A DNA stretch of 34,115 bases from an uncultured Opitutia bacterium (GTDB taxonomy: Bacteria > Verrucomicrobiota > Verrucomicrobiia > Opitutales > Opitutaceae), in the NCBI GenBank assembly GCA_903869665.1, contig CAIPZZ010000205.1:1-34115 (forward strand), read 5' to 3'. The notes beneath the pieces are model-generated. The model had not been told where the DNA came from. It was given only the letters and a program-made list of their open reading frames with translations, and did no database searches. Of this stretch, positions 379 through 33,904 are shown piece after piece (position 1 is the stretch's first letter; each line of letters starts with the position of its first letter). A program made the position numbers and the translations under genes.

Positions 379-1638
379 TCAGGCGTCGAGCACGAGGTCG
401 CCCGCCGGGAGAGCGACGCAGGCAAGGCAGGTGCCGGGCTCGGGTTTGCTGCCGGGCTCCTGGGGATAGCTTACCTGGCCGCTGCGGATGGCGGTGACGC
501 AAGTGCCGCACTGGCCGGCGCAACAGCCGGAGGCGATGGCGACGCCCTGCGCGGTGGCGAACTCGAGGAGGTTGGCGGCGGCGCGATCCCACTCGACGGT
601 CTTGCCGGACTTACCGAAGGTGATTTTGGCGGCGGGCGCGGCTGAACCGGCGGCGGCGGCGGGCGGCGCGGCCTTTTTGACGCTGGCAGGGCCGAAGGCC
701 TCAAAATGCACGCGGTCGTCGGGCACGCCCCACGCGGCGAGCCCCTTGGTGACGGACTCCATCATGGGGCCGGGGCCGCACATGAAGAAATCGTAGTTAC
801 TGGAGGGCAGGAGCTGGCGGAAGAGGTCCACGCTCACACGGCCCGCGTGCTGGTAATCCACACCCAGGCGATCCTGCTCGGTGGGGTTGGAGTAGCAGAC
901 GTGGAGGCGGATGTTGTCGTGCTTGGCGGCAAGCGCGGCGACGTGCTCCCGCATGATGTGTTCGCCGCCGTGGCGCACCCCGTAGAACCACCAGATCTCG
1001 CGTTTGGAGCCGAGGGCCAGCAGCTCGTTGAGCATGCTGAGGCACGGCGTGATGCCGACGCCACCCGAGATCAGCACGACGGGAAACTCTTTGGCCGTAT
1101 CGAGGTAAAAGTGACCTCCCGGGGCCTTCACATCGAGGATGGTGCCCTCATGGATGTGGTCGTGGAAGAAATTGGAGGCGAGGCCGACGGGGTGCTCGGG
1201 CTTGGACGGCGGACAGCGCTTGATGGTGACACGGTAGTGATCCGGGTTCACAGCATCGCTGAGGCTGTAGCAGCGGATGGTCTTTTTTTTCTGGCCGGGG
1301 ATTTCCAGCTCGAAGGTCAGGTATTGGCCGGGCTTGAAAGGCGGGAGCGGCTTCTTGTCATGCGGGGCGAGGTAAAAGGAGCAGGCATCGCCGGCGTCGG
1401 GCACCTTTTTGGCGACGGAAAATTTGCGGACGCCGTTCCAAGGGGCGGAGTTTTCAGCGGCCTGGCGCTGCGTGCGGCGGGCGGCGTCCAGCCGCGTGAG
1501 CAGGAGCTCGCGGCCGACGGCGTCGGCGTGGACCTGCGAGCGGAGCAGCCGCATCTGGCCGGCCAAAAGGGCGACGAGCTGGCCGGCGACCAGAGCAACG
1601 AGGAGGGCACCACCAAGCAGGAGAATATTTTGCAACAT
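379..1638 (-). CDS. Membrane-anchored FAD/NAD(P)H oxidoreductase with C-terminal [2Fe-2S] ferredoxin domain
   Basis: A 419-residue flavin reductase of the ferredoxin-NADP+ reductase superfamily. Residues 5-27 form one hydrophobic anchor, followed by a basic, probably helical linker. The FAD-binding domain (about 65-180) carries RCYSLSD at 122-128, the R-x-Y-S flavin motif. The NAD(P)-binding domain has GGVGITP at 192-198 and CGPGPMM at 287-293. The C-terminal domain (about 337-419) is a plant-type ferredoxin with C-x4-C-x2-C at 372/377/380 and a fourth Cys at 404 or 407. The architecture resembles Hcr or the reductase parts of oxygenases and Na+-NQR subunit F. Its N-terminal anchor and position after a porin and a multiheme cytochrome (12 bases from the porin stop) suggest it feeds electrons from NAD(P)H into that chain. 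The acceptor is inferred, not seen. Confidence 0.88.
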   Translation of the reverse strand: MLQNILLLGGALLVALVAGQLVALLAGQMRLLRSQVHADAVGRELLLTRLDAARRTQRQAAENSAPWNGVRKFSVAKKVPDAGDACSFYLAPHDKKPLPPFKPGQYLTFELEIPGQKKKTIRCYSLSDAVNPDHYRVTIKRCPPSKPEHPVGLASNFFHDHIHEGTILDVKAPGGHFYLDTAKEFPVVLISGGVGITPCLSMLNELLALGSKREIWWFYGVRHGGEHIMREHVAALAAKHDNIRLHVCYSNPTEQDRLGVDYQHAGRVSVDLFRQLLPSSNYDFFMCGPGPMMESVTKGLAAWGVPDDRVHFEAFGPASVKKAAPPAAAAGSAAPAAKITFGKSGKTVEWDRAAANLLEFATAQGVAIASGCCAGQCGTCVTAIRSGQVSYPQEPGSKPEPGTCLACVALPAGDLVLDA

Positions 1639-1650
1639 AGCGGGAAAAAA

Positions 1651-3123
1651 TCAGAACTTGCGGCGCAGCTCAACGCGAACGCCGGCGAGATCGGGCAGGT
1701 GGGAGCGGAAGCCGGCGACGGCATCGGCGCGCAGGATCCAGGCGTGGTTGAGCGGAAGCTGCCAGCGGACGCCAAGGCCCCACTGGGGGCCGGGGGCGGT
1801 GCGCTCGGCGGGATTGCCAAAAGTGCCGAGGGCGGCGGCCTCGAGCACGAGCTGCTGGTGGAGATCAAACAGATACTCGACGCCAAGGGCGGCACCGGCG
1901 GTGTTGTGCCCGGTGTCGTCGAGCCGGGGAAAACCGGTGAGGCCGTCGGTCTCGAACACGATGCCGGTGTTAAGCAGCACGCCGCCGGCATTGGCCGCGC
2001 GGGCGAGCGACTGCGGGCGGTGGAAGCCGGCCCAGCCGTTGAGGTAGGGGACGAGCGTGGAGGGCAGGGAGGTGACGAGACTGTTCTCAACCAGCACCAG
2101 CACGCCGTCGGCGGTGCGCGCGCCGGCGGCGGGATTCTGGCCGAAGTTCCAGATCACGCGCACGCTGTTCGCGATGCGGTCGAAATAGCGGCGGGTGAAC
2201 GCGGCGGAGACATTGTGGTAGCCCAAGTCGCGCGACGCGCCCGTGCCTTCCACATAACCGTAGCCGAACTCCCAGTAGCCGCCCGTGGCCTCGATGAACG
2301 CAGTCGCGCCAAACACGTTTCCCTGGTGGTCGCCACGCAGCGCGGGCGTCGTCAGCTGGTCGAAGCCGGCGAAGAAGGTCACGTCCATGTTGGTGATCTG
2401 GAGCGCGGCGTTGTTACGGGCGGGAAGCGTGAAGGCGAGGCCGACGAAGGCATCCTGCATCCACACGCCGTTTTGAAAGAGCAACGGGATCAGACCGGCG
2501 GTGAAGGGAAGATCGAGGTGGTTTTCGCGCCCGGTGAATCCGGCGGCGAGACGGCCGAGGTCGCCCTCGAAGAACAGCGCGTCGGGCGTGAGGTCGAATT
2601 CGGTGTTGCTGGCGCGCGGGCGGTCGCCGCCGAACTCGGTGAAGGTGCCATGCGCGCGGTCCTCGAGCGGGGTGAAGAAGTAGTGGATGCGCTCGGTCGC
2701 AGTGAGCTTCAGGTCGAGGTCCAAGTTGAGCTTGGCGGCCGCGACCGCCTTTTCGGTCGCGCCGTTGTTATTCCACGCGACGGCGGTGCGGAGGTCGCCG
2801 TAAAAGAGGAGCTGCGGAAAGAGCAGGTTTTTCTCGCCGAGCAAATTGAGGCCGGGCTGGAACTGACCGGGGCCGTAAAGCTCGCGGCCGAGCTCAAGCA
2901 GCGGGCGGGCGGTGGGGTTGAGGTGCTTCGCGCCGTAGATGTCGAGCTGGCGCTGGAAGTCGTAAGGCTGGGTGTTGACGGGGTCCGGCGTGAAGGCGGG
3001 CTGGAACGCGCCGGCCGGCACGGGCGTGGCGCGCGGGTCCATGCGGACGGGCGCGGAGTCGGCGGCGAACGCGCGGGCGGCGGCGGCCAGCACGAGGAGC
3101 AGGAGGGGGCGGCGCGGGGTCAT
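1651..3123 (-). CDS. Outer-membrane beta-barrel (porin-like) protein
   Basis: A 490-residue exported protein: the signal peptide is residues 1-20 (LLLLVLAAAARAFA-A), and the rest is rich in alternating aromatic and polar strands (for example GYWEFGYGYVEG, VRVIWNFGQ, WGLGVRWQLPL). It ends in Lys-Phe, and a C-terminal Phe is typical of barrels recognised by BamA. No heme or metal motif is present. Its ATG lies one base after the stop of the pentaheme cytochrome, so the two are certainly co-transcribed. In known porin-cytochrome systems (MtrAB, Pcc) a barrel sheathes a multiheme cytochrome. This gene is in the right place for such a role, but I do not recognise a named family and sequence similarity to MtrB is not claimed. 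Confidence 0.72.
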   Translation of the reverse strand: MTPRRPLLLLVLAAAARAFAADSAPVRMDPRATPVPAGAFQPAFTPDPVNTQPYDFQRQLDIYGAKHLNPTARPLLELGRELYGPGQFQPGLNLLGEKNLLFPQLLFYGDLRTAVAWNNNGATEKAVAAAKLNLDLDLKLTATERIHYFFTPLEDRAHGTFTEFGGDRPRASNTEFDLTPDALFFEGDLGRLAAGFTGRENHLDLPFTAGLIPLLFQNGVWMQDAFVGLAFTLPARNNAALQITNMDVTFFAGFDQLTTPALRGDHQGNVFGATAFIEATGGYWEFGYGYVEGTGASRDLGYHNVSAAFTRRYFDRIANSVRVIWNFGQNPAAGARTADGVLVLVENSLVTSLPSTLVPYLNGWAGFHRPQSLARAANAGGVLLNTGIVFETDGLTGFPRLDDTGHNTAGAALGVEYLFDLHQQLVLEAAALGTFGNPAERTAPGPQWGLGVRWQLPLNHAWILRADAVAGFRSHLPDLAGVRVELRRKF

Positions 3124-3124
3124 G

Positions 3125-4981
3125 TCATTTAGCGGCGGGCGCGACGGTGAACTCGGCGGTGGTCTCGTGCAAGTTGACCATCCACTCGTTCATGGCCTGA
3201 TTCATCTCCGGCGTGGCGCCGATGAAGTCCATGAAATAGATCGGCTCGGCGCGGCTGCGCAGGCGGACGGAGAGGCGGTAGCGCCCGGGCGTTTTGAGCG
3301 CGGCAGCGGGGATGGTGTAGCGGGCGTCGCGCTGCGAGAGCGGCGGCAGGCTGCGGCCCTCCATGCGGACAAAAGGCGGGTGGTTAAGCACACTGGTCGG
3401 CTGGCTGGCGGGACGGATGAAGGGGAGCTGGTCAATATCGAGGTTGATCGGCAGATACATCTCCCGGTCGGTGCCCTTGACGTTGGTCGTGAGAAACTTG
3501 GTCTGGAGGTTGAAAAGCTGCCCGTCAACGGGGAGCCGGCCCTCGCGCACATCGCGCGAATGGAGGTCGGCCATGTCGCCACGGCTGTCCACATAGCCGG
3601 ACTCCCAGACGTTTTTACCGGCGGGGTCGAAGAGGGCGACGTTCAGCCAGATCTCCGGCTGCGCGCCGAGCGAACCGGAGGGGAGGTTGTGGCCGGAGTT
3701 GGTGTTTTTGAGCGTGTAGGCCACCTGCAGCGCGCGGCCGGCGACGGGGTCGGACTGGAAAAACGGGCCGTCGAGGTGCGAACCGTTGTGCATGACGGCC
3801 TCGCGGAGCTTGCGCTTATCCTCCAACATCCGCAGGTTTTCGTCCACGATCTCCCGCGCGTCGGCCCGGTCCTCGGGCACCTCCCACTCCGGGGGAAATT
3901 TGTAGGCGGACGGAGTAGCGGAGACTTTTTTCTCGAACTCACTCGTGCCCCAGCCGGCGCGGTAGTCAAACTTGAGCCACGTCTGGATGGAGAATTTTTT
4001 CGCCTGCGGGTGATGGGGGAAGATGCCCGGATGCACGATCGGGTAGCCGGGGCCGTAAAAGGCGTGGTTGTGGTGCTCGCGGCCGGCGTTGACCGGGAGG
4101 CCGCCGATGATGGCGGCCGGCGCGGTCGTGTAGCCTTCGGCGCGGCCGGGGGTTTTGCCCATGTGGCATTCCTGGCAGTTCACGCCTTGGGCGGCGGCGG
4201 GCGAGGCGCGGAATTGGTCCCAGACGACCTCGAGCTTGATGCCGGGATGCACGGCGACCTGGTGGCAGGAAACGCAGAACTCGGAGGTCTTGATGGTCTT
4301 AAACTCGAGGGCGGAGTTGTGGATCAACTGCCCGGGGCCGGGGTCCGACTCCTTGAGCTTGACGTGAAACGTGTCCTTCTGGCCGACCACCATCGCCACG
4401 CCGTCGCCGCTGAAGCCGCCACGGACCGGCTGGGTGAGGTCGCCCGGCTCGATGCGGCGCTCGCCATTGACCTTAGTGTATTGCTCCTGCACGCGGTGGC
4501 ACGTCACACAGGTGATGCCCTCGCGCGAAACCTCCGTGCGCTGCCAAATGGGCAGGTCGCGCTTCTCGCCGAGCGTCGTGCCCACGGCGGCGTGGCACCG
4601 CATGCAAAAGTAGCCGAGGGTGCCCTGCGAGAGGTCGTTGATCTTCTGCTCGAACTTGTGAAACACCGGCGAGACCGAGGCGTAGGCGTGGTTGGAGGAG
4701 CGCCACTCGTCGTAGATCTGCTTGTGGCAGGCGGCGCACTCGGACGCGCTAGGGAAGTTGCTCTTGGCGAACGCCGCGACGTGCGGATCCACGGGGTTCA
4801 CCGGCTGGGGCTTCGGCGGCGGGAGTGCGGGAGCGGCCGGGCGCGGCTGCACGGGCGGCGCCCCGCCACCGAGCAGATCGTCACCGCCGAGCAGGTCGTC
4901 CGAGCTCGGAGCTGCGGCGCGTGTCGCGGACGCGAGCAGACCCAGCAAGCCGAGGGAAAGGGCGAAAAATTGCGGCCTCAT
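3125..4981 (-). CDS. Pentaheme c-type cytochrome, cytochrome c554-like
   Basis: A 618-residue protein with a signal peptide (residues 1-24, cleavage near ATRAAA). Five CXXCH motifs start at residues 82, 126, 158, 236 and 269; further His residues after them could be distal ligands. The spacing and the CAACH...W..SNHAYA segment resemble the cytochrome c554 family. Residues beyond about 400 form a heme-free beta-rich domain (GHNLPSG, then several strands) of unknown role. Just after the signal peptide a duplicated acidic-hydrophobic motif, DDLLGGDDLLGG (28-39), precedes a Pro/Ala-rich tether (41-62). The same motif occurs in the decaheme cytochrome of the divergent operon. It is the first gene of the leftward operon and overlaps no other. 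A periplasmic electron carrier or reductase; the substrate is unknown. Confidence 0.85.
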   Translation of the reverse strand: MRPQFFALSLGLLGLLASATRAAAPSSDDLLGGDDLLGGGAPPVQPRPAAPALPPPKPQPVNPVDPHVAAFAKSNFPSASECAACHKQIYDEWRSSNHAYASVSPVFHKFEQKINDLSQGTLGYFCMRCHAAVGTTLGEKRDLPIWQRTEVSREGITCVTCHRVQEQYTKVNGERRIEPGDLTQPVRGGFSGDGVAMVVGQKDTFHVKLKESDPGPGQLIHNSALEFKTIKTSEFCVSCHQVAVHPGIKLEVVWDQFRASPAAAQGVNCQECHMGKTPGRAEGYTTAPAAIIGGLPVNAGREHHNHAFYGPGYPIVHPGIFPHHPQAKKFSIQTWLKFDYRAGWGTSEFEKKVSATPSAYKFPPEWEVPEDRADAREIVDENLRMLEDKRKLREAVMHNGSHLDGPFFQSDPVAGRALQVAYTLKNTNSGHNLPSGSLGAQPEIWLNVALFDPAGKNVWESGYVDSRGDMADLHSRDVREGRLPVDGQLFNLQTKFLTTNVKGTDREMYLPINLDIDQLPFIRPASQPTSVLNHPPFVRMEGRSLPPLSQRDARYTIPAAALKTPGRYRLSVRLRSRAEPIYFMDFIGATPEMNQAMNEWMVNLHETTAEFTVAPAAK

Positions 4982-5114
4982 GCGCGGAACACTTGCAATC
5001 AGCGGGCGTCCGCCGGCAAGCCATTTTTATTCAGGTCGAGCAGAAGAAGCGAAAAAGGCGTTGCCAGCCGCGCGTGGATTGCCCCATGCAAGGATTCGCA
5101 CAATTATCCCAACC
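4982..5114. promoter_or_regulatory. Divergent promoter region of the cytochrome operons
   Basis: These 133 bases separate the starts of two opposite cytochrome operons and must hold both promoters. Rightward, TTGCCC (5079-5084) and CAATTA (5101-5106) with a 16-base spacer are a weak sigma70-type match. This lies very close to the start codon and would give a short leader. The -35-like element overlaps a small palindrome, TTGC-N5-GCAA (5079-5091), a possible operator. Leftward, only an AT-rich patch (TGAATAAAAAT on the minus strand, near 5026-5036) stands out. No FNR- or CRP-type site was found. Confidence 0.4.
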
Positions 5115-6101
5115 ATGCCACGCCACGCACCACGGTTCCTCGTTTCCGCCCTTTTCCTCGTCCTCGGCTGCCCGGTTTTCGCGCAGCTCGATCCCGCGAA
5201 GATCACCGGCCCGGAGACGTGCACCAACTGTCACAAGCTCGAGGGCGCGGCCTGGCAGGAGATGAAGCACGCGAAGACCTTTGAGGAGCTGCACCGCCGG
5301 CCGGCGGCGCGGGAGATCGCCGGCAAGCTCGGCATCGCCAACATCAAGAACGAAAGCACCTGCGTGCAGTGCCACTACACCTCGATGGGACCGGTGGGCG
5401 CGGTCAAGGTTGTGGCCGGGGTTTCCTGCGAGCTCTGTCACGGCGCGGGGGCCGACTGGGCCAAGACCCACAATGTGAAGGAAAATCCGAACCGTATCGC
5501 CGACGCCGAGAAGCTCGGCTTCATCCCGCCCGCCAATATCTACAAGCTCGCCTCCAATTGTTACCAGTGCCACACGGTGCCGAACGAGAAGCTCGTCAAC
5601 ACCGGCGGCCATCAGGTGGGCAGCGCTCTGGAGCTGCTGGCTTGGAGCCAAGGCGAGGTGCGCCACCATTTCCTCGGTGGCAAGACCAACGCCGAGGCCA
5701 CCCCGGAGCGCAAACGTCTCCTCTTCTTGGTTGGCCGCGTCGTGGATCTGGAGTTCAGCCTGCGCGGCATCGCCAGCGCGGTGGAGCAGGGCAATTTCGT
5801 TAAAGGCATGAACGCTCGCATCAACCTCGCGAAAGCCGAGCTACAGAAGATCGCGGACAAGCTGCCCGACGGCCCCGCGAAGACCGACGTCCTCGCCGTG
5901 ATCGCCGCCGCCGTCCGACCCGCCGCCGCGGCGGACGGGACCGGACTCAAGATCACCAACAAAGACGCGGTGCTCGCCGGGGCCAAGACCATCTCCGACC
6001 TCGGCCAAAAAATGAGCTCCACCTACAAGGGCGCCGATCTGGCCGCGCTGGATCCCCTGCTGCCGACTACCGTCCAGGGCACGCCTTTCACCGCGCCCTG
6101 A
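5115..6101 (+). CDS. Tetraheme c-type cytochrome, cytochrome c554-like
   Basis: A 328-residue periplasmic protein. The ATG at 5115 gives a good signal peptide (hydrophobic LVSALFLVLGCPVFA, cleavage before QLD); upstream in-frame codons have no such sense. Four CXXCH motifs start at residues 36, 83, 105 and 149. The segment CTNCHKLEGAAW...MKH is the usual c554-type first-heme motif with a distal His candidate. After about residue 190 there is a long, heme-free, charged helical region (residues 190-328), which is unusual for c554 proteins and may mediate docking. It is the first gene of a four-gene rightward operon, 39 bases ahead of the cNMP/ferredoxin gene. Probably a soluble electron shuttle; partners are inferred from the neighbourhood. 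Confidence 0.85.
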   Translation: MPRHAPRFLVSALFLVLGCPVFAQLDPAKITGPETCTNCHKLEGAAWQEMKHAKTFEELHRRPAAREIAGKLGIANIKNESTCVQCHYTSMGPVGAVKVVAGVSCELCHGAGADWAKTHNVKENPNRIADAEKLGFIPPANIYKLASNCYQCHTVPNEKLVNTGGHQVGSALELLAWSQGEVRHHFLGGKTNAEATPERKRLLFLVGRVVDLEFSLRGIASAVEQGNFVKGMNARINLAKAELQKIADKLPDGPAKTDVLAVIAAAVRPAAAADGTGLKITNKDAVLAGAKTISDLGQKMSSTYKGADLAALDPLLPTTVQGTPFTAP

Positions 6102-6140
6102 GGGCGTCATTGCCCCCGTCCCGGCGGCACCTTTTCACTC

Positions 6141-7886
6141 ATGGCCGAGCCTATCGCGACCGTCTCGCGCCCACAGCGTTGGGACGTGCCCTTTGACGAG
6201 CGGATGGACGCCGCGGCGGTCGATCGGATTCTCGGCATCGCACCCTTTAGCCGCATTGACGCGGCGGAGTTTCCCCGCAGCACACCGCTGCGCGACATTC
6301 TGCTCAATGACACGAGCCTGCGCTCGTTCCGCAAGGGCGAGGTGATCGTGCGCGAGGGCGACTACGGCAACTCGGCTTTCTTCATCATCAGCGGTGCCGT
6401 GAAGGTCACGCTCGGCAAGGACGCCATCCCGGCCGTCCTGCTCGGCCGCCGCGAGACCCGCCAGAAAGGCTGGTTCGAGACCGTCGCCCAGCTCTGGCGC
6501 AACCCGGAGTATCCCGAGGTGCGCGACACTGCGCGCTATGCCGCGGCGCGCGCGCCCAAAGCGCGGGGTGAGACCACGGCCACCTTCGGCCGCCAAGCCA
6601 GCGCGGCGGCCCAGAATGCCGTCTTCCTCTCCGACGTCCCGGCCGTGTTGAAAGGCGGCACGGCCACGCTCGGCGCCGGTCTCTTCTTCGGCGAGATCGC
6701 CGCCCTCGGCCGCTCGCCCCGCACCGCCACCATCTTTGCCGACGAGCCGAGCGAGCTGCTCGAGATCCGCTGGCAAGGCCTGCGCGAGCTCCGGCTGCGC
6801 GCGCCCGAGATCAAGCGGTTCATTGACGCCAATTACCGCAAATACTCCCTCGAGAACCACCTCCGCGAAACCGAGTATTTCAAGGATCTGCCCCCCGAGG
6901 AGCTCCGCCTGGTCGCGGACCAGACCCGCTTCGAGACCTATGGGGCCTTCGACTGGCACACCGACTACAAGAAACACCGCGACACCGACCCCGTCGAGCG
7001 CCTCCGCGGCGAGCCCGTCATCGCCGAGGAGGGCCAATATGCCAACGGCCTCATCCTGATCCGCGCCGGGTTCGCTCGCCTGAGTCAGAAATACAACCAT
7101 GGTGAGCGCACCGTCAGCTACCTCGCCCGCGGACAAATGTTTGGCTTCGCCGAGCTCGCGCACAACTGGCGCGCCAAAGAGAGCGTCCCCTTCCGCAACA
7201 CCCTCCGCGCGCTGGGTTATGTGGACGTGCTGGTGATCCCCAGCCATGTCGTCGAGCGGCACATCCTGCCCCGAATTCCGCCCGCCGACCTGCCGACGGT
7301 CCTACCCGCCACCACCGAGGCCGATTCCCCGCTGACCCAGACACCGGGCCGGCTCCCCACTGACTTCGTCGAGTTTTTGGTGGACAACCGCTTCATCAAC
7401 GGTCGCGCCGCGATGCTGATTGACCTCGACCGCTGCACCCGGTGCGACGACTGCGTCCGCGCGTGTGCCGCCGGTCACGAGCACAATCCCCGTTTCGTCC
7501 GCCACGGCCAGCAGCTCGGCTCGCACCTCGTCGCCACCGCCTGCATGCACTGCCTTGATCCGGTCTGCATGATCGGCTGCCCCACCGGGGCCATCTCGCG
7601 CGACGCCGCCGGCGGTCAGGTCGTCATCAACGATACCACCTGCATCGGCTGCGCCACCTGCGCCAATAGCTGCCCCTACCACAACATCCAGATGGTCGAG
7701 CTGCGCAATGCGCACGGTGACCTGCTCCTCGACCGGGAAAACCGGCCCGTGACCAAGGCCGCCAAGTGCGATCTCTGCCTCGAGCAGCCCGCCGGCCCCG
7801 CGTGTGTCCGCGCCTGCCCGCATGACGCACTCGCCCGCCTCAACATCCGCGACACCGACACCCTCGCCGCATGGCTGCAACGCTGA
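6141..7886 (+). CDS. Cyclic-nucleotide-binding-type domains fused to a four-[4Fe-4S] ferredoxin
   Basis: A 581-residue protein without signal peptide or membrane segment, hence cytoplasmic. The first cNMP-binding (Crp-like) domain spans about 58-230, with REGDYGNSAFFIISGAVKV and, after a 75-residue insertion, FFGEIAALGRSPRTATI (182-198). That is a canonical phosphate-binding cassette with Gly-Glu and Arg-Thr. A second, more degenerate cNMP-type domain covers about 245-375. Residues 425-575 carry sixteen Cys in four groups (432/435/438/442, 468/471/476/480, 501/504/507/511, 543/546/555/559), as in HybA, NrfC and DmsB electron-transfer subunits, so four cubane clusters are expected. No DNA-binding helix-turn-helix follows the sensor domains. 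Its stop overlaps the cytochrome b start by 16 bases. Likely the cytoplasmic electron-transfer subunit of a membrane complex, possibly ligand-gated. Confidence 0.87.
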   Translation: MAEPIATVSRPQRWDVPFDERMDAAAVDRILGIAPFSRIDAAEFPRSTPLRDILLNDTSLRSFRKGEVIVREGDYGNSAFFIISGAVKVTLGKDAIPAVLLGRRETRQKGWFETVAQLWRNPEYPEVRDTARYAAARAPKARGETTATFGRQASAAAQNAVFLSDVPAVLKGGTATLGAGLFFGEIAALGRSPRTATIFADEPSELLEIRWQGLRELRLRAPEIKRFIDANYRKYSLENHLRETEYFKDLPPEELRLVADQTRFETYGAFDWHTDYKKHRDTDPVERLRGEPVIAEEGQYANGLILIRAGFARLSQKYNHGERTVSYLARGQMFGFAELAHNWRAKESVPFRNTLRALGYVDVLVIPSHVVERHILPRIPPADLPTVLPATTEADSPLTQTPGRLPTDFVEFLVDNRFINGRAAMLIDLDRCTRCDDCVRACAAGHEHNPRFVRHGQQLGSHLVATACMHCLDPVCMIGCPTGAISRDAAGGQVVINDTTCIGCATCANSCPYHNIQMVELRNAHGDLLLDRENRPVTKAAKCDLCLEQPAGPACVRACPHDALARLNIRDTDTLAAWLQR

Positions 7887-8710
7887 CCCGCTCCGCCCGC
7901 CGCCGACTCTGGCTCCGCGCCGGCCTGCTCGCCGCCGCTTGCGTGCTCGCGTGGAGGTGGCACCACGATCTCGCCATCGCGCTGCGCCCCACGTCCGTCA
8001 CCACCGGCCTCGCCCTGCTCGGGCTCTGTGTCGCACTCGGCCTGTTCAACGCCCGCAAAAAGCTGCCTTTTCTGCCGCTGCTCCGCGCCGCCATCTGGAC
8101 GCAAGTCCACGTCTATGCCGGCTGGTTCGCAGTCTTCCTGTTCCTCCTCCACACCGGCTTCCGCGCTCCCACCGGCGCGTTTGAGACGCTGCTCTACACC
8201 GTCTTCGCCCTCGTCGCGCTCAGTGGTGTGTTCGGACTCTGGCTGTCGCGCACCCTGCCCTCCCGCCTGACGATGCACGGGGAGAACGTCATCTACGAGC
8301 GCATCCCCGCCTTGCGCGCGAAACTCCAGCGCGAGGCCGAGGCGCTAGTGCTCCGCAGTGTGGAGGAGACGCGCTCTTCCACCATCGCTGACTTTTACAC
8401 CGCCCGACTAAAGGGCTATTTCGACCGGCCGCGCGACAGCTTGCATCATCTCCTTCGCTCGGGCTCACCGCTCAAGTCCGTCCTCTCCGAGGTCCGCCTG
8501 CTCGAGCGCTACACCAATGAGCGTGAGCGGGCGATCCTCACCGAGCTCACCGCCTGCCTCCGCGCGAAGGAGAACCTCGATTTCCAGCGCGCCGGCCAGG
8601 GCCTCCTGAAATATTGGCTCTTCGTTCACATTCCCATCACCGCCAGCCTGCTGCTGCTCGGTGCGCTCCACGGCCTGCTGGTCCTCTATTACATCGGAGG
8701 CCCCCGCTGA
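7871..8710 (+). CDS. Membrane di-heme cytochrome b subunit
   Basis: A 279-residue integral membrane protein with about five membrane segments (14-31, 43-59, 73-98, 106-127, 246-274) and a charged soluble loop (130-240). Two helices each carry a pair of His fourteen residues apart: H80 and H94 (TQVHVYAGW ... LLHTGF), and H253 and H267 (FVHIPITASL ... LHGLLV). That spacing is the hallmark of two stacked b hemes coordinated between two helices, as in quinol- or ferric-reductase-type cytochromes b. The start ATG lies inside the end of the ferredoxin gene, so the two are translationally coupled. The decaheme gene follows after 6 bases. Probably carries electrons between the cytoplasmic Fe-S subunit or the quinone pool and the periplasmic hemes. 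No named family was recognised. Confidence 0.75.
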   Translation: MAATLTRSARRRLWLRAGLLAAACVLAWRWHHDLAIALRPTSVTTGLALLGLCVALGLFNARKKLPFLPLLRAAIWTQVHVYAGWFAVFLFLLHTGFRAPTGAFETLLYTVFALVALSGVFGLWLSRTLPSRLTMHGENVIYERIPALRAKLQREAEALVLRSVEETRSSTIADFYTARLKGYFDRPRDSLHHLLRSGSPLKSVLSEVRLLERYTNERERAILTELTACLRAKENLDFQRAGQGLLKYWLFVHIPITASLLLLGALHGLLVLYYIGGPR

Positions 8711-8716
8711 ACCGCC

Positions 8717-10921
8717 ATGAAACGCCTCCAGCCCTTTGATTTCAAGTCGAGCCCTTACGAGCGCCCTAACCAAGACTGGGTGTGCGGCCGCAAGGACTGT
8801 GGCGAAAGTTGCGTGCCCGGCCCCGACGCCCGCGGCCATTGCCGGGCCGCCCCCGAGTGCCGCCCCCGGAAGGACGGCGACCGCTGGTTCTGCACCCGCT
8901 CCGATGCCCACGGCGGCAAATGTCCTGACGGCCCTCGCCCCGACGGCTCCTGCTGCCGCCCGGTGCCACCCTGTGTCCCGCGCCGCAGCGTTCGCGCCCG
9001 GCGCGGCCTGGCGGTCATGCTCGTTACCGCGCTCACTCTGGGCGGCATTCTTCTCGCTCTAGGGCTTGGCTCTGGCGGTAGCTCCGGCAGCGGCTCCGGC
9101 GGTGGCGAGGCGTTTTTTAACCCCGGGCCCCTCTCCGCCCCGCACGCCGCCGGCACGGCCAACTGCGCCCTTTGCCACAGCGCCGCCGCCCCCTCCGGCT
9201 CGCTCGCCACCGCCGCCGGCCCACACACGGATTCCCAGCTCTGCGTCAACTGTCACCAATTCGGCCACAGCGCGACCGAGCCGCACAGCCTCCCCCGCGC
9301 GACCCTCACCAGCCTGACCAAGGAGGCGATGGCCGCCACCAACAGCACCCGCGCCGCGCACGCGGCCCCGGCCGACCTCGCCTGCGCCGCCTGTCACCAG
9401 GAGCACCATGGCCGCGAGGCCGTTCTCACTCAGCTCCCCAACGCCAGTTGCCAGACCTGCCACACCCGCCAGTTTGAGGGCTTCGCCGACGGCCATCCTG
9501 ACTTCGGCCGCTATCCTTACACCCGCCGCACGCGTCTCGAATTCGACCACGCCGCGCACATTTCCACCCATTTCCCTGCCGCCACCAAGCAAGGCCGGGC
9601 CGCCCCCGCCCAGTGCAACGACTGTCACACCACCGGCCCGGACAACCGGTTGATGCTCACCCGCAGCTTTGAGGCCGCCTGCGCTTCCTGCCACCTCGAC
9701 GCCATCACCAAACCCGGCCAGAAGGGCTTGGCGGTTCTCGGCATCCCCGGCCTCGACAAGAAATCGCTCGATGCCAAGACCCCCGGGGTCGGCCAATGGC
9801 CCGCCGACGCCGACGGCGAGATCACTCCCTTTCTCCGCTATTTGCTCGCGCAGGAGCCGCAGGCTGCCACCGCGCTCGCCACCCTCAAGGGCACCGACCT
9901 CACTAATCTTGCCAACGCCACCCCGGAAACGGTCGCTGCCGCCACGCAGCTTGCTTGGTCCCTCAAGGAACTCGTCGCCGATCTCCTCGCCGGTGGGCAC
10001 GCTGCCCTGCAAAAGCGCCTCGGTTCCGCCGCGCCCGCCGCCTTCGGCCAGCTTCCGGCCGAAAGTCTCCGCGTCTTCACCAGCCCCGACTGGTGGCCCG
10101 ACTTGCTGACCGAGGTCGCCGACCATCGCGCCGGCCGGCCGCCGGCCAAGCCGGCTCCGCCTCCGACCGTCGCACCTCCCGCCTCACCTCCGCCGCCTCC
10201 CGCCAGCCAAAATCTGCTCGGCGACGACCTCCTCGGTGACGCACCCAAGCCCACCTCTCCGGCTGTCTCGCGCCCCGCCGCCACAGATGATCTGCTCGGT
10301 GGCGACGACCTCCTCGCCGCGCCCACCCCTCCAAAGCCGCCCGCCGCGCCCAAATCCGCCGCGCCCATCGCCCCTGAGAAATGGGCCGCGGCCGGCGGCT
10401 GGCACGTCTCCGCCCCCGACTATACCCTCCGCTACAAACCCTCCGGCCACGCTGACACTTTCCTGAAGGTTTGGCTCGATCTCACCGCCGCCGACCCGGC
10501 CGCGCGCCCGGTCTTCGCACAAATCGCCGCCGCCAGCGCATGCGTGAAATGCCACAGCACCGACGCCGCGCCCGCGCCGTCCGCCGCGTTGCTCGTGCAA
10601 TGGCGGGCCGACGCGCCCGCGCCCCAGCTCCACACCTTCACCAAGTTCTCCCACGGCACCCATTTCAGCCTGCTCGACGCCAAGGCCTGCCAGACCTGCC
10701 ACCAGCTCGCCCCGTCCTCGCCCGCCTATGCCGCCTCTTTCCGGGACAACCACGACCCCGCCAAGTTTGCCAGCAGCTTCCAGCCCCTCAGCCTAGCCAC
10801 CTGCGCTCAGTGCCATCAGGAGCGCGGCGCAGGCACGAGCTGCCTGCTCTGCCACAACTACCACGTCGGCGAGATTGCCCCCGTGCCCGTTCGTAGCCTC
10901 CTCCACCCCGCGTCCCGCTAG
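8717..10921 (+). CDS. Membrane-anchored decaheme c-type cytochrome with cytoplasmic Cys-rich domain
   Basis: A 734-residue protein. Residues 21-86 hold ten Cys in two tandem copies of a roughly 30-residue module (W-x-C...C...GP..G-x-C...P-x-C). A basic stretch (RRSVRARRG) and one membrane helix (97-117) then place the rest in the periplasm, with a Gly/Ser spacer (118-130). Ten CXXCH motifs follow: six in an N-terminal block (starting 150, 176, 223, 245, 300, 322) and four in a C-terminal block (609, 658, 696, 709). A heme-free helical stretch and a Pro/Ala-rich linker separate the blocks. The linker (475-550) contains LLGDDLLGD and DDLLGGDDLL, matching a motif in the pentaheme protein. The first block resembles cytochrome c3/c7-type proteins. 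It is the last gene of the operon. Role inferred: inner-membrane-to-periplasm electron transfer. Confidence 0.85.
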   Translation: MKRLQPFDFKSSPYERPNQDWVCGRKDCGESCVPGPDARGHCRAAPECRPRKDGDRWFCTRSDAHGGKCPDGPRPDGSCCRPVPPCVPRRSVRARRGLAVMLVTALTLGGILLALGLGSGGSSGSGSGGGEAFFNPGPLSAPHAAGTANCALCHSAAAPSGSLATAAGPHTDSQLCVNCHQFGHSATEPHSLPRATLTSLTKEAMAATNSTRAAHAAPADLACAACHQEHHGREAVLTQLPNASCQTCHTRQFEGFADGHPDFGRYPYTRRTRLEFDHAAHISTHFPAATKQGRAAPAQCNDCHTTGPDNRLMLTRSFEAACASCHLDAITKPGQKGLAVLGIPGLDKKSLDAKTPGVGQWPADADGEITPFLRYLLAQEPQAATALATLKGTDLTNLANATPETVAAATQLAWSLKELVADLLAGGHAALQKRLGSAAPAAFGQLPAESLRVFTSPDWWPDLLTEVADHRAGRPPAKPAPPPTVAPPASPPPPPASQNLLGDDLLGDAPKPTSPAVSRPAATDDLLGGDDLLAAPTPPKPPAAPKSAAPIAPEKWAAAGGWHVSAPDYTLRYKPSGHADTFLKVWLDLTAADPAARPVFAQIAAASACVKCHSTDAAPAPSAALLVQWRADAPAPQLHTFTKFSHGTHFSLLDAKACQTCHQLAPSSPAYAASFRDNHDPAKFASSFQPLSLATCAQCHQERGAGTSCLLCHNYHVGEIAPVPVRSLLHPASR

Positions 10922-22503: not shown

Positions 22504-23571
22504 TCATGGTTTGATTAGGTTTGATTGGGTTTGATTTACCTCGGGCGGGATTTCGTGGCTGGGTTCAACCACAGGCGACTGGGCGGGAGCCGCCTCCGGT
22601 CGTGGCGTGATTTTTTCCATGCTTGTTTTAGCTTGTTTTTGCTTGTTTCGGCCGGACTTTCTCCGCGCCGGCTCGGCCTTCTTATCCTCCGCGATACTCC
22701 GCAAGACCCGGTGCCGCTCCGCTTCGGGCAGGCTGAAATAATACTCACAATCGTCCCGCAGGATCGCCCGCAGCGCGGGCGGCATGGCCTCGCTGGCCTT
22801 CCGCATTTTCTCGTCCATTTGGCGACGCTCGGCCAACCGCACCCAGCTTTTCCGCCGTGCAACCTCCACCCAGTCCCGGAAAATCTGGTCCACCTCGGCG
22901 TAACCCTTCAAAATCTTGGTGAGCCCATCCGGGATGGGCTCGCCCGCCTCGCGGAGCTTTTTCTCACGGGCCGCGAAAGTGTCATAGACCTCCTTCAGCT
23001 TGCGGATCCGGCGGAGACGGTCGGGATCCACCGCCTCAAACTCCTCCTCCGCCAGCGCCCGCAGCTCCGCCACCCTCGCTTTCTCCTTCGCATCGGCGCG
23101 GTCCTCCAGCGTCAGCTTCAGCCGCTGTGCGGCCTGGTTGCTGCGGCGCAGCCGGGCCAGCTCGCACGCGACCCCCAGGATGGCACGGGTTTTCTCCGGC
23201 CCTTCGGCCCCGGCTTCGGCGTCGCGCAGCACGCGTGCCAGCGCCAGCGCCAGATGCGGCTCGATCCGCTCCGCCAGCGCGTCCGCGCCGGCCGCACCTT
23301 GGATGGCCTTCGCCTCCTCGGTCAGCGTGCGCGCAAAGGCCAGCTCCTGCTGCAGCCGCTGCCAGCGCGCGAACCCCGCCTGCCGCCAGTTGGACAAGTT
23401 CTGCTGCTTGATCGGCTCGCCGCCGAATTTTTCCTGCAGCACCGCCTGCACCTCCGGCAGGGTGTTGAGCCATCGCAGCAGCAATGGGCCCGCCTCGCCG
23501 TCTTCCATTCGGCGGCAAAGCGCCTCCCGGATGTCGGCTGGCAGGCTGTCAATTTTGCCCGGCTGACCCAT
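22504..23571 (-). CDS. Phage terminase small subunit-like (DUF3486-type) DNA-binding protein
   Basis: A 355-residue, highly charged, helical protein. Its N-terminus (IDSLPADIREALCRRM ... LLRWLNTLPEVQAVL ... PIKQQNLSNWRQAGF, residues 7-67) resembles the helix-turn-helix start of Mu-like terminase small subunits (DUF3486). Long stretches after residue 70 look like coiled coil (about 140-235). The tail (305-355) is Lys/Pro-rich and disordered, and its last codons are formed by a 10-bp repeat. It starts 7 bases after the methyltransferase stop, so it belongs to the lexA - methyltransferase cassette. No large terminase, portal or capsid gene is nearby, so a packaging role is doubtful; a DNA-binding partner of the methyltransferase or a domesticated phage protein are alternatives. 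Confidence 0.55.
   Translation of the reverse strand: MGQPGKIDSLPADIREALCRRMEDGEAGPLLLRWLNTLPEVQAVLQEKFGGEPIKQQNLSNWRQAGFARWQRLQQELAFARTLTEEAKAIQGAAGADALAERIEPHLALALARVLRDAEAGAEGPEKTRAILGVACELARLRRSNQAAQRLKLTLEDRADAKEKARVAELRALAEEEFEAVDPDRLRRIRKLKEVYDTFAAREKKLREAGEPIPDGLTKILKGYAEVDQIFRDWVEVARRKSWVRLAERRQMDEKMRKASEAMPPALRAILRDDCEYYFSLPEAERHRVLRSIAEDKKAEPARRKSGRNKQKQAKTSMEKITPRPEAAPAQSPVVEPSHEIPPEVNQTQSNLIKP
22509..22538. repeat. Three 10-bp tandem repeats at a gene end
   Basis: GTTTGATTAG, GTTTGATTGG and GTTTGATTTA follow each other without gaps. On the minus strand they encode the last residues (NQTQSNLIKP) of the terminase-like protein and the sequence leading into its stop. Confidence 0.8.
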
Positions 23572-23577
23572 CTGGTG

Positions 23578-24432
23578 TCACTGTCCGGCCGGCGCGGATT
23601 GGGCGGCGAGGCGGGCTTGTTTCTCCCAGATGCCCGCCCGGGTGGGCTCGCCACGTTGCCGATCAATGACCGTGATACACGGGTAGGCCGAAACCTCGCT
23701 CAAGAACGGCTGCGTATGCTCAAGGTTGAGGTAGTATCGGACGTGAAAATCCCGGGCGATCAACCGCCGGAGACCGGCCCCGTAAAGATTTTTGGCAAAC
23801 CGGTTGGCGCAGATATAGGCAAGGCAGCCATTAGGTGAGAGCAAGCGCAGGCCGTTTTCAAAAAATGCCACATAAAGGTCGGCTCGATCGGTGCAGGTCG
23901 GAAATAACTCCCGGTAGCGGCCAAGCACTTTGGGGGGCAGCTCTTCAATTCGCACATAGGGCGGATTTCCCACCACCCAATCAAATGTCTCCGGCCAGCT
24001 CGTGAGCAGAAAATCGGCATGGCGAATCCATGACTCGGCGAGCACCTGCGCGCGGGCGAAGGGACAGCCTTCGCCATTCAGCAGCGCCACCGCCTGCTCA
24101 CGGGCCAAAGCGACAAATCCACTGTTAAGATCGCACGCCGTCAGCGACTGGGCCAGAACGTCATCCTCCCAGTCCACCGTGCCTTGATGCGTGCGTTCCG
24201 ACTTGAGAAGCCGCCGGATAATCTCCGCCAGAAATGCCCCGTCGCCGCAACTCGGCTCCAATAGACGCCGCTCCGCCAGCCGGCCGCCTGCTGGGATGTA
24301 GCCGGCCAAATCCAAAATGAGCGACGTCACCTCCGGTTTGGTGAAGATGGCCCCAACCGGTTCGGACGGTTCGCAGCCTTCCCAGACATCCATCCAACTG
24401 TTTTCAACCATCTTGAGCCGCGATCGTGTCAA
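23578..24432 (-). CDS. N6-adenine DNA methyltransferase, short (Eco57I/TaqI-like)
   Basis: A 284-residue amino-methyltransferase. Motif X/N-terminal GAIFTKPEVTSLIL (27-40), the SAM-binding motif I LLEPSCGDGAFL (57-68), an acidic motif TACDLNSGF (98-106) and the catalytic motif IV DWVVGNPPYVR (151-161) are all intact. NPPY marks N6-adenine (or N4-cytosine) methylation. Relatives such as M.TaqI (about 420 residues) or Eco57I-type enzymes carry a C-terminal target-recognition domain; this protein stops soon after the catalytic fold (SAYPCITVIDRQRG). It either uses a partner for recognition or is truncated. It is 31 bases after lexA and 7 bases before the terminase-like gene. No restriction endonuclease is visible. 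The start could also be Met 8 or Met 14. Confidence 0.82.
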   Translation of the reverse strand: MTRSRLKMVENSWMDVWEGCEPSEPVGAIFTKPEVTSLILDLAGYIPAGGRLAERRLLEPSCGDGAFLAEIIRRLLKSERTHQGTVDWEDDVLAQSLTACDLNSGFVALAREQAVALLNGEGCPFARAQVLAESWIRHADFLLTSWPETFDWVVGNPPYVRIEELPPKVLGRYRELFPTCTDRADLYVAFFENGLRLLSPNGCLAYICANRFAKNLYGAGLRRLIARDFHVRYYLNLEHTQPFLSEVSAYPCITVIDRQRGEPTRAGIWEKQARLAAQSAPAGQ

Positions 24433-24463
24433 AGATTCCCGTTCAATAAAGTAGATTGGCGGC

Positions 24464-25075
24464 TCAGCGTTGGCCGCAGCCGATCAGCCCGACGAGGACC
24501 CCTTGGATGGTGAGGCTTTCAAGGGGAATGAGGTCGCGGTAGCGCGGGTTTTCTGCGCGGAGGAAGGTGCGCCGGCCCTCGCGGACCATCCGCTTGAGGG
24601 TCGAGGCGCCGTCAATCAGCGCGGCCACAATCTGGCCGGGCCGGGCCTCGTCCGGCCGGAGCAGGGCGATGTCTCCGTCGGCAATCTGCGCGTCTATCAT
24701 GGAATCGCCCCGGACATGCAGGGCGAACAGCCCGCGGGTGGAGCGGAGCCGAAAGAGGCTGGGATCAATTCGGATGGTCTCGTCGGCTTGCGTCGCGGCG
24801 TCGGCGGGCAGGCCGGCGGGGATGGTGCCATAGACGGCGATCGTGAAGAGATGATCCTGCACCTCCTTCACCTTGGCGGCCCAACTGCGGCCGTCACCGG
24901 TGTCGGTAACGAGGCCTTTGCGGGCGAGGGCCTGCACGTGCTTGCGGGCGGCGTTGTGCGAGGCGAAGCCGAACTCCTCGCAAATCTCCCGCAGGGAGGG
25001 CGGTCGGGTGTGGTTTTTTTGGTGGCGAACCATGAAGGCCAGCACGGCCTCCTGCGCCTCGGTCAAGGTGTCCAT
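24464..25075 (-). CDS. lexA: LexA-type SOS repressor
   Basis: A 203-residue repressor of the LexA/S24 family. The N-terminal winged helix (1-65) matches LexA: LTEAQEAVLAFMVRH, then PPSLREICEEFGFASHNAARKHVQAL as the recognition region. The autocleavage bond is probably Ala 87-Gly 88 (GTIPAGLP). The catalytic Ser is 125 (RGDSMID) and the Lys 161 (STLKRM), so self-cleavage on RecA filaments is expected. ATG 25075 gives the standard N-terminus; the frame is open 35 codons further but that part is unlike LexA and crosses the operator. A TGTCC-N4-GGACA palindrome lies just upstream, indicating autoregulation. It heads a cassette with a DNA methyltransferase and a terminase-like protein, not the usual imuB/dnaE2 or recA partners, so it may be an accessory LexA. 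Confidence 0.9.
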   Translation of the reverse strand: MDTLTEAQEAVLAFMVRHQKNHTRPPSLREICEEFGFASHNAARKHVQALARKGLVTDTGDGRSWAAKVKEVQDHLFTIAVYGTIPAGLPADAATQADETIRIDPSLFRLRSTRGLFALHVRGDSMIDAQIADGDIALLRPDEARPGQIVAALIDGASTLKRMVREGRRTFLRAENPRYRDLIPLESLTIQGVLVGLIGCGQR

Positions 25076-25083
25076 CTGGTCAC

Positions 25084-25101
25084 GGTGTCCGGTTGGACAC
25101 C
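25084..25101 (-). promoter_or_regulatory. Putative LexA operator of the lexA cassette
   Basis: GGTGTCC and GGACACC are perfect inverted 7-mers around a GGTT spacer, 9 to 26 bases upstream of the lexA start. The core TGTCC-N4-GGACA differs at one base per half from the TGTTC-N4-GAACA motif that I recall being reported for Verrucomicrobia LexA. Its position over the start region fits repression. Confidence 0.72.
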
Positions 25102-25235
25102 TCGCGTCAAGACCGAATTGGACCGTGGGCCGTTTGCAGTTCTCTCTCCGGGCCAGTCTGCACTCGGCGGCACGGGACAAATCTTGGAGGATCAGATCTT
25201 AAGTTTTGCAGTGAGACGGTCAAAACAGCGGATGG

Positions 25236-25889
25236 TCATTCGGACCGACTCCCGGGCAGCAAGCTTCGGATCCCCGCGATTTTTGCTTTCAGCTCACGGG
25301 TGATCTCCGCCTCGTCCTGATCTTTTTTGCTCGAGCTGCTCAAAATATAATCCAGCCGCTCGATCGTCCCCTTGAGCGCCTGCTCAAACTCCCGCCGGGC
25401 GCGCTCAATGGCATCCGGCGGGCCGCCGACCTGCAGCCGCTCTTTGACCACCCGCGCCGCGTCATACAGTAGATTCAAATGCTGCTTCAGTTGGCTGCGG
25501 CTCCTGAAATACGGATTGGTGTCGTATTGGTCGCGCAACGCGCCGATCAAATCCTGCGTGTAGGCCACCGCCATTGCGGCATCAGGAAAACCCGCCGCCG
25601 GCAAGGCGGGCAAATGGTCGAAAGGAACCAGTTTCCTCGTCTTCGGCCCCGTTGGGCCCGGCAAGGTCTCCCTTCCTCCCGGCGCATCCCGCCCCGCCGG
25701 TCGCGTCGTTGCGATGCTGGTGCTGGCCTCCATGCCGGCAACACTTGACCCGGTCTGGGCCGTGGTGAAATGCGCCACCAGCCAGACCACACCGGCCGAC
25801 GCGAGCAGCGCGCACCCCGACATGAAAGCGACCATTTTCCCGGCGGAGGGCAGAGGACGCTGCGGGAGATTGGGGGCCGGGGTGGTCAT
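25236..25889 (-). CDS. Hypothetical protein with N-terminal membrane anchor
   Basis: A 217-residue protein of unknown family. One membrane helix (about 18-40, MVAFMSGCALLASAGVVWLVAHF) follows a short Pro-rich cytoplasmic tail, then a low-complexity linker (43-90) and a helical, charged domain (100-217; QDLIGALRDQY, SQLKQHLNLLYDAARVVKERL, REFEQALKGTIERL), so most of it should be periplasmic. It ends about 160 bases before lexA starts, with the LexA operator between. The upstream gap (25890-26335) carries a dispersed palindromic repeat. Size and helical style resemble the two exported proteins at 26336-27543, but no sequence similarity was evident. Confidence 0.6.
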   Translation of the reverse strand: MTTPAPNLPQRPLPSAGKMVAFMSGCALLASAGVVWLVAHFTTAQTGSSVAGMEASTSIATTRPAGRDAPGGRETLPGPTGPKTRKLVPFDHLPALPAAGFPDAAMAVAYTQDLIGALRDQYDTNPYFRSRSQLKQHLNLLYDAARVVKERLQVGGPPDAIERARREFEQALKGTIERLDYILSSSSKKDQDEAEITRELKAKIAGIRSLLPGSRSE

Positions 25890-26074
25890 AACAACTGAGG
25901 TTCACTCAGGCAATCCACCGACGGAATCTTTGTCGAGCCGATGTCATCCCAGCTACTACCCGGATCGGCCTGCCGGCGGTCTGCCTGTCCCGAGGAGCCG
26001 AGGAGGAATTTTAAATCGAAGGCGCAGAGAAACAAAGACGCTAGTGGGGTTTAAAACCTAGTGTGGCCGAATCG

Positions 26075-31583: not shown

Positions 31584-31705
31584 TGCGAGGAGCAACAGCG
31601 ACGAAGCAATCCATGTGAAATCCTTGCTGGATCGCCACGCCCGGCCTCTCGACAGGCTCAAGGCCCTGAGCTTGTCGAACGGGCTGCGCGGGACTCGCGA
31701 TGACA
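31578..31705. repeat. Dispersed palindromic element, copy B
   Basis: A 128-bp element with ends TGTCATTGCGAG and CTCGCGATGACA, inner arms AGCGACGAAGCAATCCA and GGATCGCCACGC, and a second hairpin TCGACAGGCTCAAGGCC / CTGAGCTTGTCGA. It sits in the divergent gap between the esterase and deformylase genes and keeps frames open on both strands, which artificially extends both reading frames. Confidence 0.85.
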
Positions 31706-31773
31706 AGCCAACCTGTGCCACACATCGTCATTTCCGCCTTTCCGCCGCGCCAGCTTTCCCCCTTGCTCCCCCC

Positions 31774-33580: not shown

Positions 33581-33789
33581 CAAAATCCGGCGGGGTTGTC
33601 GCGCCCCGCCAGGCACATGGCCAAGACCGCTGGCATTCGGTGCGTCAGCTGCGTTCTGAGCGGGCGTGAATTGGCTGATGCGCACGCCGGGGACGTCCCG
33701 CTCCACCCTCGTCGGCGAGAAACAGACAGCGGCCGCGTGATTCCGGCTAGAGCAGTTTACGTTGAAGTGTAGCCGCCTGCCCCGCTTTT

Positions 33790-33904
33790 TGTCATCGCGA
33801 GGTGCGCGCAGCGCGCCGTGGCGATCCAGCCGTTCGACGGGCTCAAGGACCCGAGCCCGGCCGAGGGGCTGGATGGCTTTGTCGCTGCGCTTCTCGCCAT
33901 GACA
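33790..33904. repeat. Dispersed palindromic element, copy C
   Basis: A 115-bp copy with ends TGTCATCGCGAG and CTCGCCATGACA, in the opposite orientation to copy A. Its right flank (ACGATACGGCCACACTATGG, to about 33930) mirrors the left flank of copy A, so A and C are longer relatives of each other than B. It lies in the 488-base gap 33581-34068, where apart from this element and the terminator I see no gene. Confidence 0.85.

Follow-up and report, generated by a model that had tools for sequence, protein, structure and literature searches.

An uncultured Opitutia bacterium (assembly GCA_903869665.1) carries, on a stretch of contig CAIPZZ010000205.1 whose full 34,115 nucleotides we refer to as the window, seven genes (positions 379–10921) that encode, with a probability of roughly 0.6, a conserved system for the export of electrons across the cell envelope. 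In this scheme, every step of which we infer from protein anatomy and conservation, NAD(P)H would reduce a membrane-anchored FAD/[2Fe-2S] reductase (P0001), and electrons would then pass to the four [4Fe-4S] clusters of a second protein (P0005) that is probably gated or tuned by its own cyclic nucleotide monophosphate (cNMP)-binding domains. The b hemes of P0006 would carry them from the cytoplasmic to the periplasmic side of the membrane and on to a decaheme cytochrome anchored by a transmembrane (TM) helix (P0007), whose 8-Cys domain, predicted to face the cytoplasm, may serve for docking or as an additional metal centre. A tetraheme cytochrome (P0004) would ferry electrons from P0007 to an outer-membrane module, formed here by an ExtKL-like pentaheme cytochrome (P0003) and its OprD-type porin (P0002), and reduction of an external acceptor could take place either at the barrel or, once the porin has let the acceptor in, in the periplasm. 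The features of the locus, with the main basis for each assignment, are as follows.

379–1638, minus strand: P0001, NAD(P)H:FAD:[2Fe-2S] reductase (Pfam domains, solved relative, TM prediction)
1651–3123, minus strand: P0002, predicted outer-membrane beta-barrel of about 18 strands, OprD/Occ/MOMP-like, with a C-terminal Phe (AlphaFold2 with Foldseek and VIA)
3125–4981, minus strand: P0003, periplasmic pentaheme cytochrome c with signal peptide and DDLLGG linker (5 CXXCH and profile matches)
4982–5114, no strand: divergent intergenic region of 133 bases
5115–6101, plus strand: P0004, periplasmic tetraheme c554-type cytochrome (PF13435, 57 bits)
6141–7886, plus strand: P0005, cytoplasmic protein with cNMP domains and 4x[4Fe-4S] (PF00027, Fer4 families)
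7871–8710, plus strand: P0006, five-helix di-heme cytochrome b (four invariant His, AlphaFold2)
8717–10921, plus strand: P0007, membrane-anchored decaheme cytochrome c with N-terminal 8-Cys domain and DDLLGG linker (10 CXXCH)

All seven open reading frames (ORFs) are intact and are arranged as two divergent blocks, with the start of P0006 overlapping the end of P0005 by 16 bases. The window holds 20 CXXCH motifs at the DNA level, where chance would give 1.24 and none of 100 shuffled sequences had more than 3; 19 of the 20 fall within genes of the locus, five in the pentaheme, four in the tetraheme and ten in the decaheme cytochrome. An earlier note on this DNA, made from its letters alone, had reported the same seven complete genes, the same two blocks and the same heme-motif counts, and on these points we agree with it. 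Genes for c-type cytochrome assembly are present in the source genome, as are three heme-copper oxidase homologues, from which it follows that the organism is probably able to respire oxygen.

Conservation of the gene set across phyla

A profile scan with P0005 of 84,980 species genomes returned 362 relatives. Neighbourhoods were examined for the best 80 of these and for four same-order loci, and 83 loci with a P0005 homologue were counted. By BLAST, a cytochrome b is present in 81 of the 83, a decaheme in 78, a reductase in 77 and a relative of the tetraheme in 66, part of the tetraheme matches being at 26–30 % identity to a divergent triheme relative. The iron–sulfur (FeS) and cytochrome b genes are adjacent on the same strand at 70 loci with a median gap of −16 bases, and the cytochrome b and decaheme genes at 67 with a median gap of −4 bases; given these negative medians, the translational coupling is itself conserved. 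Adjacent same-strand pairs are also formed by the pentaheme and barrel genes (25 loci) and by the barrel and reductase genes (22 loci). In its fullest form the order on one strand is pentaheme, barrel, reductase, tetraheme, FeS protein, cytochrome b, decaheme, and this is found in Planctomycetota, Latescibacterota, Zixibacteria, SAR324, Nitrospinota and Alphaproteobacteria; in the relatives of the window those seven genes are split into two divergent blocks. The whole set is also present in Hwanghaeella grinnelliae, a strain in the genome collection. A neighbourhood search across phyla had been set beforehand as a test of the gene set, which is thus found to be syntenic in seven phyla. No description of it was found in the open-access literature, an absence that is weak evidence of novelty.

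Two arrangements can be told apart from the P0005 tree and the neighbourhoods. Type I loci have the tetraheme, a long decaheme (637–1059 aa) and often the pentaheme–barrel pair, and in type II loci, found in Verrucomicrobiota, the decaheme is short (547–612 aa) and the c554 relative is a divergent triheme protein. Because these modules are recombined or stand alone, we regard the reductase, FeS protein, cytochrome b and decaheme as an inner-membrane core that is paired with different outer-membrane modules. A possible third branch is seen at L094 and L095, where a distant trio comprises a 31 % identical FeS-cNMP protein, a longer cytochrome b with a Pro-rich insert and a decaheme of 473–488 aa that lacks the 8-Cys domain; neither reductase nor barrel was found nearby.

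Phyla mostly hold together in the P0005 tree, and the window falls among Opitutae relatives with 84 % identity, with the proviso that the names of metagenome-assembled genomes (MAGs) need care. Four MAGs titled Klebsiella pneumoniae or Akkermansia muciniphila (L046, L073, L082 and L083) carry a type II locus and group with Verrucomicrobiota subdivision 3 sequences, and their names are probably wrong.

Could the pentaheme and barrel genes be an unrelated neighbour that lies beside the core by chance in the source genome? Either module is found without the other, several complete genomes having the core with neither pentaheme nor barrel, and in a few complete genomes of the same family, G080 and G211 among them, the core is not accompanied by any P0003 relative. 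However, gene order is kept in the seven phyla, and in 388 Verrucomicrobiota genomes, where P0005 occurs in 16, P0003 in 7 and both in 4, the co-occurrence is above chance (hypergeometric p 6e-5, or 9e-4 without the window's own genome, hence below 1e-3 in either case). Synteny thus largely refutes a chance association, which we consider very improbable.

A predicted path from NAD(P)H to periplasmic hemes

The inner-membrane half of the scheme, from NAD(P)H to the periplasmic hemes, is well supported by anatomy. At the point of entry, P0001 has NAD_binding_1, FAD_binding_6 and plant-type Fer2 domains, all at the Pfam cut-off, and a single predicted TM anchor at its N-terminus (residues 5–23). 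Its reductase half resembles flavohaemoglobin, the best solved relative being flavohemoprotein 3ozu (E 2.2e-51).

P0005, for which no TM helix is predicted, had been called a four-cluster ferredoxin, and this describes its last 150 residues well: they contain 16 Cys in four quartets, conserved at 96–100 % in 84 sequences, match Fer4 families and correspond to a 4x[4Fe-4S] domain of the DmsB/HydN type. What had been overlooked is that the first 400 residues contain two cNMP-binding, CRP-like domains (PF00027, 94.1 bits against a cut-off of 27.5). A phosphate-binding cassette, FGEiAAL.R.pRTAT, is kept across the 84 relatives, and the second domain retains a version of the cassette with E...LRA. 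The single precedent to come to our notice was the hydrogenase subunit HoxI, which has a domain of the cNMP type (PMC12319191), and no description of a cNMP-domain FeS protein together with multiheme cytochromes was found in the open-access literature.

The di-heme cytochrome b proposed in the earlier note is borne out by the two His pairs of P0006 (H80-x13-H94 and H253-x13-H267), all four residues being invariant in 54 sequences. Its AlphaFold2 model is confident, with a predicted local distance difference test (pLDDT) score of 92.9, and has five helices and a long helical loop that would be cytoplasmic by the positive-inside rule. There is no Pfam match at cut-off, only a weak one to DUF4405, no credible sequence relative in the PDB and no clear relative in a fold search, which gave common helical-bundle matches alone (best Z 11.6 at a root-mean-square deviation of 8.8). 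The arrangement recalls NADPH oxidases and ferric reductases in that an NAD(P)H-FAD domain feeds two b hemes on two H-x13-H helices; it differs in having separate subunits with FeS clusters in between, and P0006, which has no clear solved relative, does not match the ferric-reductase Pfam family.

P0007 was correctly recognised in the earlier note as a membrane decaheme, having ten CXXCH motifs, doubled-CXXCH and cytochrome c7/c3 domains (Pfam/NCBIfam) and a single TM helix (residues 97–115), but the domain that precedes this helix had been missed. The 8-Cys domain (residues 1–90, window 8717–8990) consists of two repeats, with W.CG....G..C..GP...G.C.....C.P occurring twice, and its cysteines (23, 32, 42, 48, 59, 69, 79 and 86) are conserved at 96 % in 77 sequences. 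It has no Pfam match, and a PDB sequence search with P0007 gave nothing credible. Five Arg/Lys residues precede the TM helix and none follows it, so that by the positive-inside rule the domain should be cytoplasmic. The tetraheme P0004 begins with a cytochrome c554 domain and has four conserved His outside its CXXCH motifs (53, 120, 167 and 185).

These same components could be imagined to work inwards, with NAD(P)+ receiving, by way of the hemes, electrons from donors outside the cell such as Fe(II) or reduced sulfur. In principle a multiheme chain can run either way, and many of the relatives are, by their titles, MAGs from groundwater and redox zones. However, inward flow through the b hemes would oppose the membrane potential, and the reduction of NAD(P)+ would be uphill; no subunit for coupling energy to it is visible, and the reductase is nearest to flavohaemoglobin reductases that oxidise NAD(P)H. 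We therefore think this direction improbable.

Two readings of the outer-membrane half

The outer-membrane half of the export system is ambiguous, and a wire through the barrel appears no more likely than a porin that supplies a soluble acceptor to a periplasmic pentaheme reductase. P0003 has a signal peptide and begins with a cytochrome c554 domain, and its profile matches the pentaheme cytochrome c552 of Thermochromatium tepidum (5ze8, E 1.7e-14) and MccSep (9wt8, E 2.8e-4). The three share a domain order of c554-like hemes, NapC-like last hemes and a GHxxPxG beta domain; T. tepidum c552, which aligns with the pentaheme in both its heme and beta domains, is about 180 residues shorter (435 aa against 618 aa). 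MccSep is presumably Geobacter ExtKL, judging by its name, length and selenocysteine, since the PDB table names no organism. ExtKL is a pentaheme selenoprotein linked to selenite reduction (PMC5877670), and its model, NF040886, is matched by 23 of 23 members of the pentaheme family, all below cut-off (best E 1.5e-14; P0003 scores 26.9 bits against a cut-off of 250). The selenocysteine of MccSep stands directly after GHxxPDG, and at that position the 27 pentahemes have Phe (17) or Ser (10), so that an ExtKL-type selenite reductase is unsupported for P0003. Seven His outside the CXXCH motifs are conserved in the pentahemes, and there are thus sufficient ligands for five bis-His hemes. The pentaheme is thus related to a cytochrome with a link to selenite reduction but lacks the key residue of that enzyme, and would be either a carrier or another kind of reductase. 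A second pentaheme copy, spread over two ORFs with an internal stop in the genome search and lying beside an intact barrel gene, was seen at L097 (G210:C1, about 363.9–365.3 kb), in a genome whose second FeS-cNMP gene copy is also split.

The barrel P0002 was modelled with AlphaFold2 from 25 homologues as a barrel of about 18 strands at medium confidence (pLDDT 77.5). Its nearest solved folds are Campylobacter MOMP and the Pseudomonas Occ/OprD channels (Foldseek, 5ldt, E 1.4e-11; VIA against OccK7, Z 27 and 2.9 angstrom over 322 residues). Proteins of this kind act as channels for substrates; a similar fold is no proof of function. None of the 25 homologues has a Pfam match at E 0.01, P0002 has no NCBIfam match, and PDB sequence searching gave nothing credible.

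An acidic repeat, DDLLGG, occurs in Pro-rich linkers of both the pentaheme (window 4866–4900, minus strand) and the decaheme (10223–10320, plus strand), which are unrelated proteins, and is written in different codons in each. Homologous linkers in other phyla have as many as 10 copies, and multiple copies are absent from the other protein families selected from these loci; the repeat is a possible docking motif shared by the two cytochromes.

Known systems offer partial parallels. The nearest is the Geobacter extHIJKLMNOPQS cluster, which encodes 5-, 10-, 4- and 12-heme cytochromes, a porin, a Rieske protein and a cytochrome b (PMC5877670, PMC6148476). Its parts closely parallel those of the locus in the 5-, 10- and 4-heme cytochromes, FeS protein and cytochrome b, and in a porin (ExtI there; here the predicted porin P0002, whose gene lies beside that of the pentaheme), but homology is seen in the pentaheme alone: P0006 does not match ExtO or ExtP, nor does P0005 among the matches listed. 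The locus lacks the selenocysteine, the rhodanese lipoprotein and the Rieske/cytochrome b of ext, and its cytochrome b, of another kind, would be fed by a 4x[4Fe-4S] protein that carries cNMP domains and by an NAD(P)H reductase. MtrCAB and other porin–cytochrome (Pcc) systems share with it a barrel gene adjoining a multiheme cytochrome gene, an inner-membrane cytochrome and a periplasmic carrier; they differ in taking electrons from quinol rather than NAD(P)H, and the barrel here has about 18 strands. The earlier note had stated that none of the genes looks like MtrA, MtrB, MtrC, CymA or NrfH, and indeed no family cut-off is reached. The MtrA/DmsE-type decaheme model (TIGR03508, cut-off 192.2) gives 27.6 bits for P0003, 22.6 for P0004 and no match for P0007; Cytochrom_NNT, for NapC/NirT and CymA, gives the pentaheme 23.7 bits against 24.1; NrfH gives it 23.5 against 134.2, and the tetraheme 19.2. 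Membership of MtrB/PioB is rejected for P0002, as neither Pfam nor NCBIfam gives a match.

How, then, would electrons leave the periplasm, if they do? In one reading they do not: a small soluble acceptor, for example an oxyanion or an organic acid of low mass, is imported by the porin and reduced by the pentaheme with no outer-membrane wiring. The predicted fold of the barrel is that of a substrate-type porin, the pentaheme has the c552/MccSep architecture, and pentaheme–porin pairs occur without the core. In Geobacter, loss of the porin ExtI impairs reduction of selenite and tellurite and spares that of Fe(III) citrate (PMC5877670). Against a reductase stand the replacement of the selenocysteine in 27 of 27 pentahemes and the full set of bis-His ligands, which fits a carrier. 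We put this reading only a little short of even odds, and the statement of the earlier note that no terminal reductase is visible is open to doubt, since the pentaheme is related to ExtKL/MccSep and could itself be the terminal enzyme.

In the other reading the pentaheme, inserted into the barrel or docked on it, passes electrons to solid acceptors, for example Fe(III), Mn(IV) or humics. The obligate neighbourhood of pentaheme and barrel in the 25 adjacent pairs is in its favour, as are the sister type II loci, which also speak against a purely periplasmic reductase. Eleven of these encode a protein of about 650–900 aa (C10) without heme motifs, complete copies of which end in an aromatic residue, and searches of Pfam, NCBIfam and the PDB gave no match for this putative large barrel. 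In seven it is followed by a 10-heme protein of about 1300 aa with LVIVD repeats that matches ExtM weakly, and the small barrel of the P0002 type is present at none of the 11. This combination with the core favours transfer across the envelope. Another novel cluster of porin and multiheme cytochrome, with at least 20 TM strands and an 8-heme partner, was proposed by He et al. (2017) for extracellular electron transfer to humics in Trout Bog Verrucomicrobia and Opitutus terrae (PMC5615132); it shares the phylum and the pairing with our locus, which has about 18 strands and five hemes. The window contains no surface lipoprotein cytochrome, and a lipobox is missing from all pentahemes. MtrB has 26 strands, and a barrel predicted to have about 18 would not be wide enough by that standard to hold a cytochrome. 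The proposal of the earlier note that the barrel serves as such a conduit is thus unsupported by the model, and we consider a wire of this kind rather unlikely.

The 133-base intergenic region has neither a sigma-70 consensus nor a terminator that we could find, and no Rfam family or tRNA was found in the window as a whole. Judged by eye from translations, 22504–25900 is a phage- or mobile-like gene block, with a LexA-like repressor ORF (24464–25180, minus strand) and an N6-methyltransferase-like ORF (23578–24432, minus strand). A dispersed repeat (31625–31706 and 33789–33871) has direct and inverted copies, 74–85 % alike, around a deformylase-like gene.

Strength of the proposal and its meaning

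The conduit idea of the earlier note survives as one conserved set whose parts predict the passage of electrons from NAD(P)H, by way of FeS clusters and b hemes, as far as c hemes in the periplasm; its outer-membrane wire is unproven and perhaps wrong. Several points weigh against electron export as a whole. The order and direction of electron flow are deduced from gene content, as are the gating and the acceptor, and cyclic-nucleotide binding by P0005 is a prediction from its sequence. The 8-Cys domain of P0007 could be disulfide-bonded or zinc-binding. P0003 is missing from most of the Verrucomicrobiota genomes that have P0005, the pentaheme–barrel pair occurs without the core at L092 and L093, and at L091 it stands with the reductase alone, in a genome without P0005 at E 1e-10.

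The locus has no quinone or proton-pumping subunit, and electrons moving outwards, which follow the membrane potential, would use it up along with NAD(P)H. We therefore think a role in redox balancing, in the scavenging of acceptors or in detoxification more probable than respiration that conserves energy. We would also raise, tentatively and as more of a conjecture than the export itself, that direct binding of cAMP or a related molecule to the FeS subunit opens or closes NAD(P)H-driven export to extracellular acceptors, in the manner of an electron valve. If this were true, a trans-envelope redox chain would be under allosteric control by a second messenger in at least seven phyla.

What would be new here is an inner-membrane entry module with cNMP domains that can be combined with at least two outer-membrane modules. 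If our reading is right, it would be a widespread, quinone-free drain of NAD(P)H electrons in Verrucomicrobiota, Planctomycetota, marine Alphaproteobacteria and several uncultured phyla; how these groups handle electrons anaerobically or outside the cell is poorly explained. The locus also offers a case, open to testing, in which an electron-transfer subunit is fused to a second-messenger domain, and with the whole set present in Hwanghaeella grinnelliae the system may be testable in culture.

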